From NCBI GenBank assembly GCA_945276085.1, contig CALYPO010000004.1, forward strand, positions 1 to 49,092: a DNA stretch of 49,092 nt. The letters run 5' to 3'. Below the pieces are notes generated by a model that saw only the letters and a list, made by a program, of their open reading frames with translations, was not told where the DNA came from and made no database searches. Origin of the DNA: an uncultured Gilliamella sp. Lineage in GTDB: Bacteria > Pseudomonadota > Gammaproteobacteria > Enterobacterales > Orbaceae. This document shows positions 24,587 to 36,122 of this stretch, piece by piece (within the stretch, counting starts at the first letter, position 1; each line of letters starts with the position of its first letter). Both the position numbers and the translations under genes were made by a program.

Positions 24587-26092
24587 TTAGTGGTGTTGTT
24601 TAAAGCCTACATTATTATTACCAAAACAGTTGTCATACTCAAAGCCTGTTAACTCTTTAACTAAACTTCTTATTTCTGGTGTTGCATCTTGTTTTTTGCC
24701 ACCATTTTTTAATCTATCAAGTTCTTGAATAATAAGTGCATGAGTCGATTTATCTAATTTCATACGATATGTGAAGAAGATACCTAATAGTGCCATTCCA
24801 CACACACCGAAGATTAATACTAAGTTAATTGCAGTAACGGCACTCTCTGGTTGAACAGCATCTACGCCAGACACAAAACCAGAATATTTCAATACAATAC
24901 CTAAGACAAAGACGATAGTTGCACGCATTAATTTACCGGCCATGGTCATAGCACCAGCATAAATACCTTCGCGACGTCTTCCTGTTAGTACTTCATCGAT
25001 ATCTGCTAAAAATGTGTATACACTCCAAGGAATATAATAAACACCACCCGTTCCTAATCCAAACCAAATAGTAATACCAATTACAATCCATGTAACATGA
25101 GGCATATTAAAGTAGTAGACACCGATATAGCCGATTACCGAAGATATTACTATCAATATTGCAATAACAAATGGTCTTTTGAATCCACGTTTTACACACC
25201 AAGCCATGAAAAAGGCAGTTGAGATTAATTGGCAAATACTACTTAAACTGTTCATTTGTGAAACGAAGGTTTTGGGTTGGCCTAAGTTAAATACCACAAA
25301 ATAAGTAAATGTTGCTGCAAATAACCATTCAGCACCAAAGCCAAATAGATACATACCTAAATGGTTTCTAAAAGTTTTTAAACGGAAAGTTGAAAAAACA
25401 TCTGAAAATAATTTAACAATACTTTCCCAAAGGCCAGAAGTTGTTTCATCTTCAATTTCATCAACTGATTTTTCCCAGCTATTAAAATAAAGCAAAATTA
25501 GTGCTATCGCCATAATAGATGCATAAGTAATACCTGTTAATAAGAATGGTAGTGGAGAGTCTTTACCATCAAATAGATAGAAAAATACACCAGGAATAGC
25601 TGCAGCTAAGAAGTTTGCTACTTTACCAAACATCGCTTTGGAACCTGCTAGGTAAGTTCTTTGATCGAAGTTTTTAGTCATCTCTACCGGTAAAGTATTG
25701 TATGGAATCATAATCATGGTATAGATGAATTCAAATAAAATATAAGTAGTTAAGTAGTACCAGAAATTCATCCCATCTACCCAAAGTAATGGGTAAATAA
25801 TCATACATGGAATAGCAAATAGGATGAAGAATCGACGGCGACCAAATCGACGTCCAAGTTTTGTATGGTTAAAGTTATCAGTAATAAAACCCATTAGTGG
25901 ATTTAAAATTACATCTAAATAGGTAGCTATAGAAAAAATTAACGTTGCTTGAAATGCCGAAAGTCCACAAAATGTTGTATAAAAGTATAGTAACCAAGCG
26001 GCACTAATTGCTAGAGCACCACTTCCTATCAAATTACCACTACCATACGAAAATCGAGTGAGTGTGGTTATTTTTTTCTGATTATCAGCCAT
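24587..26092 (-). CDS. GPH-family MFS transporter, probable oligogalacturonide importer (TogT-like)
   Basis: This inner-membrane symporter of the glycoside-pentoside-hexuronide family has about 12 helices. The family signature follows the second helix (DVILNPLMGFITDN...GRRFGRRRFFIL), and FGLGTGGVYYIPWSVYTF lies in the second half. I start at ATG 26092 (MADNQKKITTLTRFSYG), with AAGGAAA 8 nt upstream, giving 501 residues; the longer frame adds 24 unsupported residues. It is divergent from the porin gene and shares a control region with inverted KdgR-like sites, so it probably imports unsaturated oligogalacturonides. TogT is the best analogue; other hexuronides are possible. Confidence 0.85.
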   Translation of the reverse strand: MADNQKKITTLTRFSYGSGNLIGSGALAISAAWLLYFYTTFCGLSAFQATLIFSIATYLDVILNPLMGFITDNFNHTKLGRRFGRRRFFILFAIPCMIIYPLLWVDGMNFWYYLTTYILFEFIYTMIMIPYNTLPVEMTKNFDQRTYLAGSKAMFGKVANFLAAAIPGVFFYLFDGKDSPLPFLLTGITYASIMAIALILLYFNSWEKSVDEIEDETTSGLWESIVKLFSDVFSTFRLKTFRNHLGMYLFGFGAEWLFAATFTYFVVFNLGQPKTFVSQMNSLSSICQLISTAFFMAWCVKRGFKRPFVIAILIVISSVIGYIGVYYFNMPHVTWIVIGITIWFGLGTGGVYYIPWSVYTFLADIDEVLTGRRREGIYAGAMTMAGKLMRATIVFVLGIVLKYSGFVSGVDAVQPESAVTAINLVLIFGVCGMALLGIFFTYRMKLDKSTHALIIQELDRLKNGGKKQDATPEIRSLVKELTGFEYDNCFGNNNVGFKQHH

Positions 26093-26115
26093 AAATCTAT
26101 TTCCTTTAATAATTA

Positions 26116-26130
26116 TGAAATACTGTTTTA
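26116..26130. promoter_or_regulatory. KdgR-like operator (transporter side)
   Basis: TGAAATACTGTTTTA resembles the KdgR consensus half-sites (AATGAAAY, TGTTTYATT). The exact reverse complement occurs at 26348-26362 in the same spacer. It lies 24 nt before the transporter start. Confidence 0.65.
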
Positions 26131-26347
26131 AAATTATTATTGAAATAATACTAAATTTATACAAATTAATTTTAATTTTTTTTTAGAAATGTGACGTTGG
26201 TAACAAATTATTTTGATTTTTAAGGTATATATATTAATATTATTTTAAATAAAAATTAAATATATCATGTAGTTATTGTTTTTTTTGAATTGTTTTCTGA
26301 AACTGTGATCTTATTAACAGAAAAAATTAATAAAATAATAAAAAATA

Positions 26348-26362
26348 TAAAACAGTATTTCA
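26348..26362. promoter_or_regulatory. KdgR-like operator (porin side)
   Basis: TAAAACAGTATTTCA is the exact reverse complement of the site at 26116-26130 and lies 33 nt before the porin start, a suitable place to block transcription. Confidence 0.65.
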
Positions 26363-26394: not shown

Positions 26395-27957
26395 ATGAGT
26401 CAATTTAAATTAAAAAAAATACCGCTTTTAATGTTTCTGTCTACCTTTCCTATTTATTCTTTTGCTGGTCAAACAACTTTTCAATATGAACATAACTGGA
26501 AATCTATGGATAGGATTCATGGGGATACAATTAAGTTAATTCATAAAACTGACGATAGTTGGCAATATGAATTTAAATTTGGTGTTACTGAAGGTGGTGG
26601 AAACAAACGTGATGTTTTATATGATGATATGCAAGGTGGATCGGGTGGTGTTGTTATTCAAAAAACATTTACGCTTGATGATGGCTGGGGATCGATTATT
26701 CCATCATTAGAATTAGGTTTCAGCAAAGATTCAACTCTTTATCAACCAGGATTGAAATATAGTTATAAAATTAATAGTGATTGGTCAACAAGTTTTCGAT
26801 ATCGCTATGAATGGAAAAAAATATCTCACGCTGAACGTTATAAAAGAGCAAAAATAGCTGGCAAACAAGTTAAATATGTTGCTAGTAGTAATACAGGAAG
26901 GAATCGTTTAGATTGGGCATTAATGTATTCTGGTATAAAAGCATTTAACTTTGCCTATACCTTTAACTATTATTTTGGTGATTATACTAACAATTCTTAT
27001 AAAGCATTGAGGAACGGTTTTTCTAAAAATGAATATAAAGCTTATAACAATAAAAAAACTGATTATGAGCAAGAATTTAAAATTACCTATAATTATTCAA
27101 AATTGTTCCGTCCTTATTTTTCCATTTCTGATGTATCGAAAAATAAAACCACAAATACTCGACAAGCTAAGTTTAAAGTTGGTTTCAATTACGCATTCGG
27201 TCAATCAAATAGCAAAGATTCTAATTTCGCTTATAAAACCTATTTCAAATATGCGCATCATTATGGTTTAACTTCACATTACCATGGTGATAGTTTTGGT
27301 CTATATACTGATTTTGATAAAAAAGGCTATGTTGGTCTAAGTGTAAATACCTATAACCAATTAAAAAATAGATTATTCTTTGATGATATTGTTTCTAGTC
27401 ATTATCAAATTTATGGAGGTTACAATTTTTATTTAGCTGATAATTGGGTACTAACACCAAATATGGAAGTTAGATTCTATTCAGGTGGTGGTTATAAAGC
27501 TAAAAGTAAAGAAAACTTACCCCATTATCAGTTAGGTGATGTAAGTGATTCACAACGTCCAGGTGTTCGTTATTCTCCCGCTTTAAAATTGACTTGGTTA
27601 CAAAGTGATGATCTATCTTTTTATGGCCAATATCGATTTGAATATCGCAAAGTTTCAAGAAGTAAACGCGAAGATAGTGTTCAAGGTTATGTCGATAATC
27701 GAGCGCGCAATCGTTTTGATATAGGTACTGATATTAATCTAACTCCTGATTGGAACATTGGCTATCGCTTCTCATACTTAAAAGGGAACTATGTATTACA
27801 CAATGATAAAAAGCATGATTATCAACAAGAACTGGATATAAATTGGCAAGCAACCAAAGTTTGGCAAGTTAACTTTGCTGCAGAAGATGTGGCAAAAAGT
27901 GTTCATTCTGACGCAAGGGAAGCTAAGTTAGCACTAGGATTATCTTATTTATTTTAA
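26395..27957 (+). CDS. Double-length KdgM-type oligogalacturonate porin
   Basis: This 520-residue outer-membrane beta-barrel protein has a signal peptide cleaved near A24. The mature part is two tandem KdgM-like halves of about 245 residues each. Half 1 (25-268) has YRYEWKKISHAERYK, then RNRLDWAL, KKTDYEQEFKITYNY and the end TRQAKFKVGFNYAF. Half 2 (275-520) repeats these as YRFEYRKVSRSKRED, RNRFDIGTDI, KKHDYQQELDINWQ and AREAKLALGLSYLF. KdgM of Dickeya is a single 12-strand porin of about 236 residues ending in a similar motif. It is the first gene of a run with the esterase and both lyases. Confidence 0.88.
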   Translation: MSQFKLKKIPLLMFLSTFPIYSFAGQTTFQYEHNWKSMDRIHGDTIKLIHKTDDSWQYEFKFGVTEGGGNKRDVLYDDMQGGSGGVVIQKTFTLDDGWGSIIPSLELGFSKDSTLYQPGLKYSYKINSDWSTSFRYRYEWKKISHAERYKRAKIAGKQVKYVASSNTGRNRLDWALMYSGIKAFNFAYTFNYYFGDYTNNSYKALRNGFSKNEYKAYNNKKTDYEQEFKITYNYSKLFRPYFSISDVSKNKTTNTRQAKFKVGFNYAFGQSNSKDSNFAYKTYFKYAHHYGLTSHYHGDSFGLYTDFDKKGYVGLSVNTYNQLKNRLFFDDIVSSHYQIYGGYNFYLADNWVLTPNMEVRFYSGGGYKAKSKENLPHYQLGDVSDSQRPGVRYSPALKLTWLQSDDLSFYGQYRFEYRKVSRSKREDSVQGYVDNRARNRFDIGTDINLTPDWNIGYRFSYLKGNYVLHNDKKHDYQQELDINWQATKVWQVNFAAEDVAKSVHSDAREAKLALGLSYLF

Positions 27958-27993
27958 TCGATAAAAGTGTTAAAAACAGTTAGTGGTGAAAAA

Positions 27994-29550
27994 ATGATAA
28001 AGAAAATTTTTTTCGGATTTTTATTGGTTGTCACTTCAATCAATCAAGTATTGGCAAGTACTGTAATACAAGGTTATGTTTATGTTAATAAACCAGTTGT
28101 TTCATCGGTGATAGTCCGTGATGTGAATAATAAAATTTTAAAAACGGCGACTAATAGCGATGGGTTTTATCAACAAGATGTTTCTGAACTGACTCCACCA
28201 CTAATTGTTTTTAGTAATGAAAACTCACTTGCCCGAAAAGCGGATGAAGGGCAAATGTGTAACGGTAATTGTTTGGTTTCATACGTTCATACCTTACAAA
28301 AAGATGAAAAAAATACTGTTAATATTAATCCATTAACTGATTTTTTAACTAGTGAACTAGCTAAACAAATCAATCTTCTAGGCCCAGAACAATTTACTGA
28401 TAATCAATTATCTTTTTCAATAGATGATGCTGCATTAAGCCATGCTTATAAAAATTATCATTTGCTGTTTGATAAAGCATTACGCCAAGTAGGTATTATT
28501 GCTAATTCTTTTGATCCACTTACCACCGAAAATCCAGATATTAACAAGCTACTTAATGTAATGTACTTTAATCGTGGATACGATTCTTCTACTGGTAAAG
28601 TAAGTGGTACTGTATTGTTTGATATGCGTTTAAGACCCATTAGCCAAGATTCACCTTTTGATTATGATCAGGCAGTTAAGCAAAAAGAAAGAAATATAAA
28701 TGCTAAGCAACGTATTTTTATTTTAGGTGATTCGACTGCGTCCAACTATGATAAAAAAGTTTATCCAAGAATGGGATGGGGCCAAGTTTTTGATCAGTTT
28801 ATTGATGATAAGGCTGATACGGTTGTCATCAATGGCGCACAGTCAGGCCGTTCAAGCCGTAGTTTCAAAACTGAAGGATGGTTCGATTTACTGATCCCTT
28901 TAATGAAAAAAGGCGATTATATGATCATCGCTTTTGGACATAATGATGAAAAATGTAACGGTAACAATCCGAAACGAGGTAAAGTGGATGTTGCTAATTT
29001 ATGCACTTATCCTAATGATGATAATAACCAAAAACAGTATCCATCAACGCAAGAAAATATGTCATTCCAATCCTCTTTAGAAGGTTATCTCGCTGTGGCA
29101 AAAGCGTTGGATATGACGCCAATTTTAATGACACCAGTCACCCGTTATAAAGATAAGAATAATAACATTGCTTATCAAAATACTAATCCTGTTAGTCATA
29201 CGCATTATACCGCCAATAAACCAGGTTTTGCTTATTGGGGAGATTATTCGAATACGATTAAACATACGGCAAAAGTTAATCAAGTTGCTTTAATTGATTT
29301 GGAGTCATTTAGTATTGATTTTGCCAACCAACACAAAGATGACTGGCAGTCTTACTGGTTAGCTGTAGATCCTAATGATCCTAAATATCCTTATTATAAA
29401 AATCAAACTTCTGGCGTGATTAACAATCCTGATGCTACGCATTTTCAAGAAAAAGGCGCATTAGCTATCGCCAAAATTATTGCTAATGCCATAAACAACG
29501 ATCCTTGGTTACAGCAAGGAATCACTTTCGATCAAACTCAGATTAACTAA
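27994..29550 (+). CDS. SGNH-hydrolase pectin/rhamnogalacturonan acetylesterase (CE12-like, PaeY-like)
   Basis: This exported esterase is predicted to remove acetyl groups from pectin so that lyases can act. Start ATG 27994 (GGTGA upstream) gives 518 residues with a signal peptide, MIKKIFFGFLLVVTSINQVLA. The first 230 residues are an unassigned domain beginning VIQGYVYVNKPVVSSVIVRD, which resembles an Ig-like carboxypeptidase-regulatory fold. The C-terminal SGNH domain has GDSTAS (Ser247), GAQSGRSSRSF, AFGHND and DATHF (Asp480, His483), the rhamnogalacturonan acetylesterase arrangement. Its neighbours are the porin and two pectate lyases. Deacetylation of pectin, not only rhamnogalacturonan, is inferred from context. 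Confidence 0.8.
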   Translation: MIKKIFFGFLLVVTSINQVLASTVIQGYVYVNKPVVSSVIVRDVNNKILKTATNSDGFYQQDVSELTPPLIVFSNENSLARKADEGQMCNGNCLVSYVHTLQKDEKNTVNINPLTDFLTSELAKQINLLGPEQFTDNQLSFSIDDAALSHAYKNYHLLFDKALRQVGIIANSFDPLTTENPDINKLLNVMYFNRGYDSSTGKVSGTVLFDMRLRPISQDSPFDYDQAVKQKERNINAKQRIFILGDSTASNYDKKVYPRMGWGQVFDQFIDDKADTVVINGAQSGRSSRSFKTEGWFDLLIPLMKKGDYMIIAFGHNDEKCNGNNPKRGKVDVANLCTYPNDDNNQKQYPSTQENMSFQSSLEGYLAVAKALDMTPILMTPVTRYKDKNNNIAYQNTNPVSHTHYTANKPGFAYWGDYSNTIKHTAKVNQVALIDLESFSIDFANQHKDDWQSYWLAVDPNDPKYPYYKNQTSGVINNPDATHFQEKGALAIAKIIANAINNDPWLQQGITFDQTQIN

Positions 29551-30735: not shown

Positions 30736-30770
30736 AATTATTGAAATAAACAAAAATGTTAGGACCCATA

Positions 30771-33014
30771 ATGAAAAAAATATTAACTTCAATACTTTGT
30801 CTGTCTTCGCTTTATGTTAGCGCAGCTTCTGCACAAGAGTGGAAAGCGATAGCATTTGGCCAATCGACTGACTTAAATTTTGCCTCACTTATCAAGCCTG
30901 AAAAAGTGGGAACCAATAATGCATGGATTGCTGGTCAAAAAGATTATTTAGTTCCAAATCAACCTTATCAATTACCGTCAGATTTCTATTTAGAGAGTCG
31001 TGGCGGTAAAATTGCTAACTCGCATGATGGAATGGTGGTTTTTTATACTCAATTACCCGTTAATCAAACTTTTACTTTAGAAAGTGATGTTACCTTAGAG
31101 CAAATAGGACCTGAAGTGGATGGAAAAACGCCTGCCGCTCAAGAAGCGGTTGGTTTATTTGCTCGTGATACTATTGGCGTAGCTAGAAGTGATCCTCAGC
31201 CGGCTGGTTATGAGGAGTTTCCAAATGCTTCAAATGTAATTATGAATGCATTAATTACTCAAAATCAAAAAAATGATAATTTAGTAAAAGTAACCGGCTT
31301 AGTACGTGATGGTGTAAAAAAAGCATGGGGTAATGAAGGCATATCAATTGAGAAAGTTGGTTATGTTGAAAATGTTAATTATGTTGATGTTAAAAGTATG
31401 CATTTAACAATGACCAGAACGGCAGATCAATTTATCTTATCGATGAAAAATAATGCGACTGGTGAAGAGAAACAGTGGGCAACCAATGATTATTCAGGAT
31501 TCTTAAATCAACAAGATAACAAAAATATTTATGTCGGCTTTTTTGCTTCTAGAAACGCAAAAGTTGAGTTCAAAAATTCTAAATTAACCCTCAGTGATGT
31601 AACGGTTGATTATGATAAATTACCCGCTAAACCTGAGGTAATTGTTGATATTAAACCAACGTTAATTTTATCATCACCGAATGATGTATATAGTAAAAAT
31701 TATACATTACAATTTTTCCCAAATACTTCAGGTACCGTATTTGTTAAAGAAATTAATAAAACGTTGAATGCGGAAGTTGGTAAGTTATTACAGTTTCCAG
31801 CTCAGCTAAAAGATGGAACTAATACCTTTACTGTTGAGTTTACTGATAATGCTAAAAATAATACTCAAATTTTTACAATTAATCTAAATAAATCATCGAT
31901 TGAAAATTTATCTAATATTATTGTTTCGCCAGAAGGTAAAAAGGATAATAAAGGTACCAAACAATCACCGGTTGATTTCGAAACGGCTGTTAATAGCGTT
32001 GAACCGGGCGGTGTTATTCATTTGATGGATGGTTATTATGACGGCATAACTCTTCCGGCTCAATTAAGTGGATTACCCGGTAAATTAAAAACCATACAAG
32101 CCATTAATAAGCATAAAGCGATTTTTATTAACACTACGTTTAATTTAGATAGCAACTATTGGTCTATTAAGCAGGTTATCTTTGATGGAAATATTGATGA
32201 TAAAGATAATAAACCAGCTTATTTAAGAATTTCGGGCAGTCATAATGTGATTGATCAAGTTATTACACGTAATAATAGTGATACAGGTTTGGCAATCTCA
32301 GCTAAAAAGAAAAATCAAAATCGAATTTATTGGCCATCTTATAACCTAATTCTTAACTCTGATTCTTATAATAATATGGATAAATCAGGTAAAAATGCTG
32401 ATGGTTTTGCCGCTAAATTGGGTGTTGGTAAAGGGAATGTATTTAGAGGGTGTATTGCTCATAATAATACTGATGATGGTTTCGATCTTTATAACAAGAT
32501 TGAAGATGGCCCAAATGATCCGGTATTAATTGATAGTTCTGTTACATATTCAAACGGTTTTCCTTTTTCAAAACCCAATATTGCTAAAGGGAGTATAGGT
32601 AATGGCTTTAAATTAGGAGCAGAAGGTCAACCGGTAAATCATAAAATTATCAATTCAATTTCCTTAAATAATAATATGGATGGCTTTACTGATAATTTTA
32701 ATACTGGTTCTTATATCATGAATAATAATATTTCGATCAATAGTGCGAGGTATAATTATATTTTACGTGCTAATCCTTATGAATTTTTAAAACCAGTGGT
32801 CATTTTTGAACACAATTATTCTATTCGTGATAGCTGGCAATCAGCGATAAAAGATTCATTTGGACCACAGATTAAAAGTAAAGATTTTAAATCTGTAACC
32901 AGCAATCAATTATGGAAAGGAAATAGTGACTTTAAAATCACTCGAGATAAAAACGGTAATATAGTGTTACCAAAAGAGCTAAAAACGCTAATCGAAAAAA
33001 ATAAAGCTAAATAA
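30771..33014 (+). CDS. pelX: Exopolygalacturonate lyase, PL9 family (PelX-like)
   Basis: This 747-residue exported lyase is of the size and architecture of Dickeya PelX, a periplasmic exopolygalacturonate lyase that releases unsaturated digalacturonate. Start ATG 30771 has GGA 8 nt upstream and opens a signal peptide ending SAASA. The N-terminal third (to about 290) is a beta-sandwich-like region with FTLESDVTLEQIGPEVDGKTPAAQEAVGLFARD. The PL9 beta-helix follows, with NADGFAAKLGVGKGN (candidate catalytic Lys549) and NNTDDGFDLYNK (calcium ligands). It ends the porin-esterase-lyase unit. Confidence 0.88.
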   Translation: MKKILTSILCLSSLYVSAASAQEWKAIAFGQSTDLNFASLIKPEKVGTNNAWIAGQKDYLVPNQPYQLPSDFYLESRGGKIANSHDGMVVFYTQLPVNQTFTLESDVTLEQIGPEVDGKTPAAQEAVGLFARDTIGVARSDPQPAGYEEFPNASNVIMNALITQNQKNDNLVKVTGLVRDGVKKAWGNEGISIEKVGYVENVNYVDVKSMHLTMTRTADQFILSMKNNATGEEKQWATNDYSGFLNQQDNKNIYVGFFASRNAKVEFKNSKLTLSDVTVDYDKLPAKPEVIVDIKPTLILSSPNDVYSKNYTLQFFPNTSGTVFVKEINKTLNAEVGKLLQFPAQLKDGTNTFTVEFTDNAKNNTQIFTINLNKSSIENLSNIIVSPEGKKDNKGTKQSPVDFETAVNSVEPGGVIHLMDGYYDGITLPAQLSGLPGKLKTIQAINKHKAIFINTTFNLDSNYWSIKQVIFDGNIDDKDNKPAYLRISGSHNVIDQVITRNNSDTGLAISAKKKNQNRIYWPSYNLILNSDSYNNMDKSGKNADGFAAKLGVGKGNVFRGCIAHNNTDDGFDLYNKIEDGPNDPVLIDSSVTYSNGFPFSKPNIAKGSIGNGFKLGAEGQPVNHKIINSISLNNNMDGFTDNFNTGSYIMNNNISINSARYNYILRANPYEFLKPVVIFEHNYSIRDSWQSAIKDSFGPQIKSKDFKSVTSNQLWKGNSDFKITRDKNGNIVLPKELKTLIEKNKAK

Positions 33015-33238: not shown

Positions 33239-33874
33239 TTAAGCTAGTAAGCTTTTGATGTAATTGGTTATTTCAGGATCTTGACTATTTTCAAATAAAC
33301 ATTTTTGGAAACGCTCACCTCTGATCGCATCTTTAAGTAATGATTGATCAATTGACTTCAATGCTTCAATTAAACTTTTTCCTGCTGCATTTTTCATATC
33401 ATTTAAAATTACAGCATTAGCATTTTGAGATTCACGACGCTCAGGTGGATAACCTAATCCTTTTTCGCCATCAAATGCTTTTTCAAAAATATAACGAGCA
33501 TTGAGTTCTGCACCCCAACCAAAGCCTTTAGCAAAAGCAAGTGATAACGCATTACCATTATTTACTTGTGCAAATAAATAAGCATCAGTAGGTTCAATAC
33601 AATAACCACAGTTAACACCAGGGAATGCATTTAACGCCATTAATGCGCCTTGTCCTGTTCCACAACCTGTGATAACAAAATCAACGGCTTTACTGTTTAA
33701 TAAAATAGCGCTAATAATACCTAAATGAACATAAGTTAATTTTTTATCATTGTCGCCATCCATGCCAACGTTAAAAACAGTATGTCCATATTTCTCAGTT
33801 GCGTTTTTTAATTCATTTAAAATAATTGGATTTTTAGCAGCTTGGCTAAATTCGTTCATTAGTGCTATTTTCAT
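33239..33874 (-). CDS. RpiB/LacAB-family isomerase, probable 4-deoxy-5-hexulose-uronate isomerase (DhuI-like)
   Basis: This 211-residue protein has the RpiB/LacA/LacB fold signatures: a nucleotide-like N-terminus MKIALMNEFSQAAKNP, VDFVITGCGTGQGALMALNAFPGV with the Cys-containing loop near residue 90, and NNGNALSLAFAKGFG. True RpiB is shorter (about 150). The streptococcal DhuI isomerases that act on unsaturated uronate products are RpiB-family proteins of this length and are paired with an SDR reductase, DhuD. Here the gene is divergent from ogl and near kduD, and no KduI-type cupin gene occurs in the island. I therefore infer it supplies the KduI step. A pentose phosphate role is less likely. 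AGAGGAAA precedes the ATG. Confidence 0.72.
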   Translation of the reverse strand: MKIALMNEFSQAAKNPIILNELKNATEKYGHTVFNVGMDGDNDKKLTYVHLGIISAILLNSKAVDFVITGCGTGQGALMALNAFPGVNCGYCIEPTDAYLFAQVNNGNALSLAFAKGFGWGAELNARYIFEKAFDGEKGLGYPPERRESQNANAVILNDMKNAAGKSLIEALKSIDQSLLKDAIRGERFQKCLFENSQDPEITNYIKSLLA

Positions 33875-35279: not shown

Positions 35280-35298
35280 TAGACCTTTTTGTCTATCA
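35277..35298 (+). repeat. Hairpin between ogl and kduD
   Basis: TGATAGAC (35277-35284) and GTCTATCA (35291-35298) form a perfect 8-bp stem with loop CTTTTT, starting at the ogl stop codon. No T-run follows. It could stabilise the upstream mRNA or attenuate transcription between the two genes. Confidence 0.55.
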
Positions 35299-35321
35299 TA
35301 ACTATAACGGAGAATATAATT

Positions 35322-36122
35322 ATGTCGATTTTAAATAAATTTTCACTCAACAATAAAATAGCGCTGGTAACGGGCGCTTCTTATGGCATCGGTTTTGAGA
35401 TAGCAAAATCATTAGCCGGTGCCGGAGCGAAAATCGTATTTAATGATGTCGTGCCTGAAAATTTACAAAAAGGACTTGATGCTTATAAAGCAGCTGGTAT
35501 TGATGCCCATGGCTATCTATTTGATATTACGGATGAAGCTGCTGTTGAAAAATCGATTGCTCAAATTGAAAAAGAACATGGTGTGATTGATATTTTAGTC
35601 AACAATGCTGGTATTATTCAACGCAAATCAATGCTTGAAACAAGTGCGGCTGATTATCGTAAAATTATTGATATCGACTTAACAGGTCAATTTATTATGG
35701 CAAAAGCAGTCCTTCCTTCAATGATCAAAAAAGGAAGTGGCAAAATTATCAACATCTGTTCAATGATGAGTGAACTTGGTCGTGAAACGGTTGTTGGTTA
35801 TGCATCGGCTAAAGGTGGTTTAAAAATGTTAACCAAAAATATCTGTTCTGAATTTGGTCATGCCAATATTCAATGTAACGGTATTGGTCCAGGTTATATT
35901 GCCACTCCTCAAACTGCGCCATTACGTGAAAAACAAGCAGATGGTTCTCGTCACCCATTTGATCAGTTCATTATTGCTAAAACACCGGCAGGCCGATGGG
36001 GGACTCCTGATGATTTAGCTGGTGCAGCCGTATTTTTAGCATCGGAAGCATCAAATTTTGTTAACGGCCATATTCTTTATGTTGATGGTGGTATTTTAGC
36101 TTATATCGGTAAACAACCTTAA
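35322..36122 (+). CDS. kduD: 2-dehydro-3-deoxy-D-gluconate 5-dehydrogenase KduD (SDR family)
   Basis: KduD reduces 2,5-diketo-3-deoxygluconate to 2-keto-3-deoxygluconate with NAD(P)H. Start ATG 35322, with GGAG 8 nt upstream, gives 266 residues, MSILNKFSLNNKIALVTG. SDR motifs are complete: TGASYGIG for nucleotide binding, NNAGI, and catalytic Ser plus YASAK. GPGYIATPQTAPLR is typical of KduD. In streptococci the equivalent enzyme is DhuD, paired with an RpiB-type isomerase like the one at 33239. The substrate assignment comes from pathway context and family. Confidence 0.93.
   Translation: MSILNKFSLNNKIALVTGASYGIGFEIAKSLAGAGAKIVFNDVVPENLQKGLDAYKAAGIDAHGYLFDITDEAAVEKSIAQIEKEHGVIDILVNNAGIIQRKSMLETSAADYRKIIDIDLTGQFIMAKAVLPSMIKKGSGKIINICSMMSELGRETVVGYASAKGGLKMLTKNICSEFGHANIQCNGIGPGYIATPQTAPLREKQADGSRHPFDQFIIAKTPAGRWGTPDDLAGAAVFLASEASNFVNGHILYVDGGILAYIGKQP

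Follow-up and report, generated by a model that had tools for sequence, protein, structure and literature searches.

The closest described relatives of the protein considered here are KdgM of Dickeya (structure 4fqe) and NanC of E. coli (2wjq), classified under TC 1.B.35/PF06178. They resemble it in sequence profile, in the fold predicted for its C-terminal half and in the pectin-uptake context, but the known KdgM/NanC members are single barrels, whereas the Gilliamella porin appears to hold two in one chain of 520 aa. In the accessible part of PMC4827864, KdgM is tabulated as a 12-strand family of 249+/-21 aa with 527 members; one sentence of that paper gives the family about 530 aa, at odds with its own table. 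The same part calls fused outer-membrane pore proteins rare, and no KdgM was seen among the fusions that it describes. Two-barrel outer-membrane proteins are already known as a kind. According to excerpts of PMC4827864, MnoP and other multibarrel fusions contain two or three barrel domains per chain; these fusions join barrels of different families, one of them having, in addition, a pair from a single family. GfcD, in its predicted model, has a 12-strand and a 13-strand barrel in one chain, much as the arrangement that is most likely here, but a periplasmic domain lies between them (PMC11494523, excerpt), where the Gilliamella porin has an 11-residue linker. The Gilliamella porin joins two paralogues of one porin family, and its unfused stage is still living.

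A survey of multibarrel outer-membrane proteins has reportedly been made by Solan et al. 2021; that survey aside, no double KdgM was found among the matches listed for the literature on KdgM, barrel fusions and Orbaceae pectin, as far as their titles and the beginnings of their abstracts go.

As for genomic organization, the tandem genes a and b of Pectobacterium are orthologous to the Gilliamella porin half by half, in the same order and with pectin genes around them. Unlike the fused porin, this type of pair comprises two genes with two signal-peptide-like starts, 14-120 bp apart (8 loci). The pair is perhaps KdgM3/KdgM4 of P. carotovorum PC1, a guess from the names used in a portion of PMC5559549, and several kdgM paralogues are mentioned for Pectobacterium parmentieri in an excerpt of PMC6192338. 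The kdgM2-pelP-sghX operon of Yersinia enterocolitica, which is under KdgR and OmpR control, has a KdgM porin upstream of a pectate lyase, as does the locus described below; however, in the portion of PMC5559549 that presents it, the operon has one porin gene, not two, and its downstream genes are unlike those found here. Gilliamella are bee symbionts, some strains of which have pectin-degrading genes, including pectate lyase (PMC5090037, excerpt).

We analysed a stretch of 49,092 nucleotides from an uncultured Gilliamella sp., hereafter called the window. The closest relatives that have a name share 93-94% identity and are Gilliamella, which places the window in this genus of the family Orbaceae. 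At 26395-27957 on its forward strand, there is an ORF of 520 aa, which starts with ATG and is open throughout. Its parts are the following:

26395..26466, forward strand: signal peptide of the fused porin, residues 1-24, MSQFKLKKIPLLMFLSTFPIYSFA, recognised by eye from the sequence
26467..27198, forward strand: predicted N-terminal KdgM-type barrel, residues 25-268, from the PF06178 match and orthology to gene a
27199..27231, forward strand: 11-residue linker, residues 269-279, from alignments and the junction DNA
27232..27954, forward strand: predicted C-terminal KdgM-type barrel, residues 280-520, from the PF06178 match, orthology to gene b, an AlphaFold2 model, Foldseek and the tree
27481..27561, forward strand: long strand 5-6 segment of the C-terminal barrel, residues 363-389, from the alignment and the strand limits of the model, whose confidence is low in that region

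A preliminary description of this DNA had taken the chain for two strongly diverged KdgM-like halves, together twice the usual KdgM size, and this was borne out. In BLASTP, the N and C halves aligned over nearly the whole length of each, with 25% identity, 42% positives and E 6e-19; their local alignment scored 201, against a maximum of 77 for 500 shuffles of the C half, and the four motif pairs that had been quoted as repeated occurred in the same order in the half-half alignment. Both halves matched PF06178 over its cut-off of 22 bits (N 63.6 bits, C 45.9 bits), the C-half match being confined to profile positions 83-222. A joint profile of the halves and their relatives matched solved KdgM 4fqe over almost the entire chain (E 4.5e-17), and NanC as well. 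The NCBIfam search of the whole porin assigned no family.

A24 and G25 are invariant in the 10 Orbaceae sequences (see below), some of which have two additional residues between them. From the last N strand to the first C strand, the linker measures 11 residues in all 10 doubles aligned, and it occupies the place that, in the unfused pairs, is taken by the stop codon of a, the intergenic gap and the beginning of b, which resembles a signal peptide. F268 and F520, the terminal F of each half, are likewise invariant in the 10 doubles. KdgM-family proteins have one barrel of about 250 aa per chain; with 520 aa and two domains, the porin is therefore a double-domain derivative and not an ordinary KdgM member. 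Judged by its sequence, it has the two complete barrel domains, each with a free-standing relative, by which multibarrel proteins are recognised. The conserved, fused two-domain KdgM porin is real, and the evolutionary steps that led to it are visible.

In Pectobacterium, the halves are represented by two adjacent genes, a (272 aa) and b (254 aa), the latter with its own signal-peptide-like start. The N half shares 48-50% identity with Pectobacterium gene a and 26-27% with gene b, the C half 38-39% with gene b and 23-25% with gene a; across the unfused loci compared, the C half and gene b were 38-43% identical. A search with a profile of the 10 Orbaceae doubles (A1) covered 392 genomes from the GTDB family to which Pectobacterium and the other holders of unfused pairs belong. 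Both parts were present in 10 of these genomes, which represent four genera; stop codons separated the parts in every case, and no fused copy was found with A1 in any of the 392 genomes. An adjacent pair was detected in 24 of 25 Pectobacterium-genus genomes, in two of the four genomes of genus g206 and in one of the eight of g228; the pair of genus g176 is known from the 392-genome family search only. An orthologue of the window's acetylesterase (39-42% identity) comes directly after the pair in five of five loci from g176, g206 and g228, with PelP further downstream in both g176 loci; in Pectobacterium, PelP follows the pair. The a-b gap, the length of which depends on the start codons chosen, was 14-26 bp in the five loci of g176/g206/g228 and 116-120 bp in three Pectobacterium loci (8 loci measured).

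In one g176 locus (L094), a pectinesterase gene (PF01095, 5241-6326) lies between the acetylesterase and PelP, and the unfused pair thus sits among esterified-pectin genes. Open frames of 576-578 aa in Pectobacterium were considered as fusions and rejected: L083 contains two separate frames and L101 two genes. By analogy with these two loci, we take the remaining frames of this length to be two in-frame genes whose stops were read through.

The two barrels differ in several respects. Net charge, a crude measure because the signal peptide was removed by count (22 or 25 residues), ranged from +5 to +18 among the a/N rows (19), from -5 to +8 among the b/C rows (19) and from -12 to +5 among the 31 single KdgMs. 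The C half has a long strand 5-6 segment (residues 363-389), of which gene b has a shorter version and which both the N half and gene a lack; these two have a longer strand 9-10 segment. Since barrel a is basic and barrel b is near-neutral with a long strand 5-6 segment, their preferred substrates probably differ, and since these differences are common to the unfused a and b, specialisation would have preceded fusion. A possible, though rather doubtful, division of labour is that of a working heterodimer, in which the basic barrel would capture the polyanion and the near-neutral long-loop barrel would take longer, esterified or acetylated fragments, side by side. If this were true, KdgM-type porins would work in pairs of dissimilar members, at first encoded side by side in one operon and later combined in a single chain. 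Assembly would then require the folding of an inner barrel with its end signal away from the chain end.

It is also conceivable, if unlikely, that two barrels form of which one conducts, the other being a structural partner or a decaying passenger. The C half is less similar to its orthologue (0.46 identity in the mean strand) than the N half is to its own (0.60), and PF06178 covers the C half just in part, which would agree with such a role; however, both halves are open and complete, with many invariant residues, in 10/10 doubles, and several basic residues persist across the two halves as well as the a and b alignment rows, among them those of a YR motif, in which R is invariant and Y is present in nearly all sequences.

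Regarding the fold, the preliminary description had offered two linked 12-strand barrels or one wide 24-strand barrel; the former is most likely, while the latter found no support. When AlphaFold2 was supplied with 26 rows of all four kinds (N, C, a and b), the best of its five models of the C half alone showed a 12-strand fold that matches those of NanC and KdgM (pLDDT 74.1, pTM 0.71; the other four had pLDDT 39-46). This model has 13 strand elements, counted as 12 by joining the short neighbours at model residues 121-124 and 127-133. Foldseek placed NanC 2wjq/2wjr and KdgM 4pr7/4fqe at the top (E 6.7e-11 for 2wjq, 4.1e-9 for 4fqe), followed by a Vibrio harveyi oligogalacturonate porin; identity to NanC/KdgM was 16%, and the TM score was 0.80-0.87 when normalised to the target and 0.60-0.66 when normalised to the query. 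The full-length model, built from 13 rows (three full-length doubles and near-identical Pectobacterium rows), reached a pLDDT of only 38.9 and favours neither arrangement.

In a single 24-strand barrel, N strand 12 would pair with C strand 1, and contact between N strand 1 and C strand 12 would close the ring around a very wide pore. The first and the last strand of either half would then have acquired new partners. Between the N half, the strands of which were placed by alignment, and gene a, conservation was 0.78 in strand 1 (the highest of the twelve) and 0.65 in strand 12, with a mean strand column of 0.60. Between the C half and gene b, strands 1 and 12 scored 0.42 and 0.43, slightly below the mean strand value of 0.46. 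Indirectly, this pattern is consistent with two barrels that have each remained self-closed, the agreement being clear in the N half and weak in the C half. The large ring could draw on the short linker, whose 11 residues might form a hairpin turn, on the slightly reduced conservation of the C closing strands and on the precedent of the 24-strand family 1.B.11, listed in the accessible part of PMC4827864. Against it stand the above-average N closing strands, with the C ones just slightly below, the stand-alone orthologues of each half in four genera, the terminal F in both halves and the 12-strand C-half model, and we consider the large ring very improbable. We infer instead that the chain forms two closed 12-strand barrels, linked one to the other.

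The order of events was derived from a tree of 9 N halves, 9 C halves, 10 a, 10 b and 31 single KdgMs, rooted on the singles. Five of the fetched Pectobacterium pairs were used; one of 32 singles, which lacked an ORF (L060), and a near copy of the window (L072, genome G006) were left out. Genes a and N halves formed one clade (100/99), genes b and C halves another (100/99), and a, b, N and C were jointly set against the singles (100/100). Pectobacterium was the first branch in each clade, and the Orbaceae halves were sister to g176/g206/g228 (97/81 and 100/97, respectively). As the Orbaceae halves are nested among unfused genes in two mirror clades of a rooted tree, duplication came first, divergence followed and fusion is derived. 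The preliminary description had assumed a tandem duplication inside one polypeptide; on the evidence of the compared sequences, the fused KdgM is instead the product of a later in-frame fusion of two old tandem genes, which arose by the duplication and are still apart in four genera. The divergence of the halves, from which the fusion had been called old, dates the duplication and not the fusion.

The opposite course, in which the fused gene is ancestral and was split in Pectobacterium and others, is hardly credible. Presence alone cannot separate gain from loss, but in either clade of the tree rooted on 31 single KdgMs, unfused genes form branches external to the fused ones, and a split must create a new start and signal peptide. 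Moreover, while KdgM was found in 105 of 394 genomes of the order, frames above 500 aa were confined to Orbaceae among the matches listed. In that family, a KdgM match was present in 11 of 44 genomes, and 10 of these 11, from two genera, carry a stop-free fused frame of 524-536 aa. Six of the 10 genomes with the fused gene are single-contig, and in nine of them it is the sole KdgM match seen. A profile search at E 1e-15 over 369 genomes drawn from the class matched only the window's own genome. That an assembly artefact or sequencing error joined two genes has practically no chance of being true: the window's genome is indeed incomplete (67%, 126 contigs), but the same stop-free frame recurs in 10 genomes, six of them single-contig, of two genera, with conserved linker length.

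Single KdgM genes also occur in Orbaceae. Genome G030 has only a single KdgM frame of 255 aa and no double, and G038 has a single KdgM gene in addition to the double one. Both singles (L019 of G030 and L018 of G038) fell outside the a/b clade in the tree.

We propose the following course of events, which, as one joint explanation, we regard as probable. A KdgM gene was duplicated in tandem in an enterobacterial ancestor, and copies a and b diverged as neighbours within a single pectin operon. The a-b pair then fused in frame in the Orbaceae lineage, with the 11-residue linker replacing the stop, the gap and the start of b. The product would be a single chain with a single signal peptide and two adjacent, separate 12-strand outer-membrane barrels in a fixed 1:1 ratio. 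Its job would be to take up the oligogalacturonates that the pectinases encoded nearby release from pectin, feeding the oligogalacturonate lyase/KdgR pathway. All stages can be seen in living genomes, i.e. single gene, tandem operon pair, fused chain and later loss. Fused and unfused genes with a similar operon offer a natural comparison for the effect of fusion on channel behaviour, and the same comparison bears on the joint action of two KdgMs and on the way in which an internal barrel-end signal is handled by the barrel assembly machinery.

The pectin-locus setting that had been noted for the porin was confirmed by its neighbours:

24587..26164 (likely start 26092), reverse strand: GPH-family sugar:cation symporter, divergent from the porin; PF13347; TIGR00792 147.7 bits, under the cut-off of 231
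26116..26130, forward strand: putative KdgR-like palindrome TGAAATACTGTTTTA, close to the beginning of the divergent gene for the symporter
26348..26362, forward strand: putative KdgR-like palindrome TAAAACAGTATTTCA, 47 bp before the start codon of the porin
27967..29550 (likely ATG 27994), forward strand: PaeY-like pectin acetylesterase (SGNH/GDSL); NF041897 494.6 bits, under the cut-off of 1000; PF00657
29569..30735, forward strand: pectate lyase, PL1 type; PF00544, E 2.7e-79
30756..33014, forward strand: PelX/PL9-like exopolygalacturonate lyase; NF041903 543.8 bits, under the cut-off of 1490; PF22842

The porin looks like the first gene of a pectin operon with the acetylesterase, the PL1 lyase and the PL9-like lyase; the NCBIfam matches to PaeY and PelX are strong, yet below the equivalog cut-offs. 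Further downstream in the window are genes for an RpiB-family isomerase, an oligogalacturonate lyase (PF14583), a short-chain dehydrogenase and KdgR, the last over its cut-off. The symporters of the remaining fused-porin loci in Orbaceae are 500-525 aa long.

The oligogalacturonate lyase is flanked by an RpiB/LacAB-type isomerase with DUF3666 (33239-33874) and the short-chain dehydrogenase (35289-36122). These two may be a DhuI/DhuD-type pair replacing KduI/KduD; in the excerpt of PMC12838403, the dhuD-dhuI cluster is given as present in Bacillota and absent in Pseudomonadota.

Evidence for KdgR sites at the locus is mixed, and the sites are regarded as putative. With the published 21-base KdgR consensus and 3 mismatches, no site was found in the window. 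A search for its 15-base core that allowed 3 mismatches or fewer returned 8 sites in the window vs 7.5 expected, i.e. no excess. A relaxed palindrome, TRAAAYRNYRTTTYA, occurred three times in the window against a mean of 0.17 expected, a chance estimate that is too optimistic, as the pattern was written after the core matches had been seen. Two of its sites lie between or at the starts of porin and symporter, and one before the oligogalacturonate lyase. The former two, at 26116-26130 and 26348-26362, are exact reverse complements on opposite sides of the divergent symporter-porin promoter region. At least one KdgR-like site was present in each of 11 other Orbaceae loci, which are close relatives; both porin-side sites were found in 8 of the 11, L002 and L080 retain only the more distant of the two, and L078 shows no such site in front of the porin. 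Control by KdgR and oligogalacturonates as the substrate are what we infer.

A near full-length oligogalacturonate lyase was detected in 14 of 44 Orbaceae genomes, comprising all 10 with the fused porin and four without it (the raw tally was 36 of 44, the remaining 22 being short matches of about 42 positions). In the fourth of the porin-less genomes, no trace of porin or symporter was found in the 17-kb stretch searched. In the other three, the 5' end of the porin gene (about 50 or 94 codons) adjoins the 3' part of the PL9 gene and the interval is missing; the deletions have two distinct pairs of end points. Loss of the porin-to-PL9 stretch was noticed in L013, L014, L103, L104 and L106 (L013 and L104, and likewise L014 and L106, are the same records). 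Some Gilliamella have thus undergone an internal deletion of the porin-to-PL9 cluster, with oligogalacturonate lyase, KdgR and symporter retained, and these strains perhaps live on oligomers released by others.
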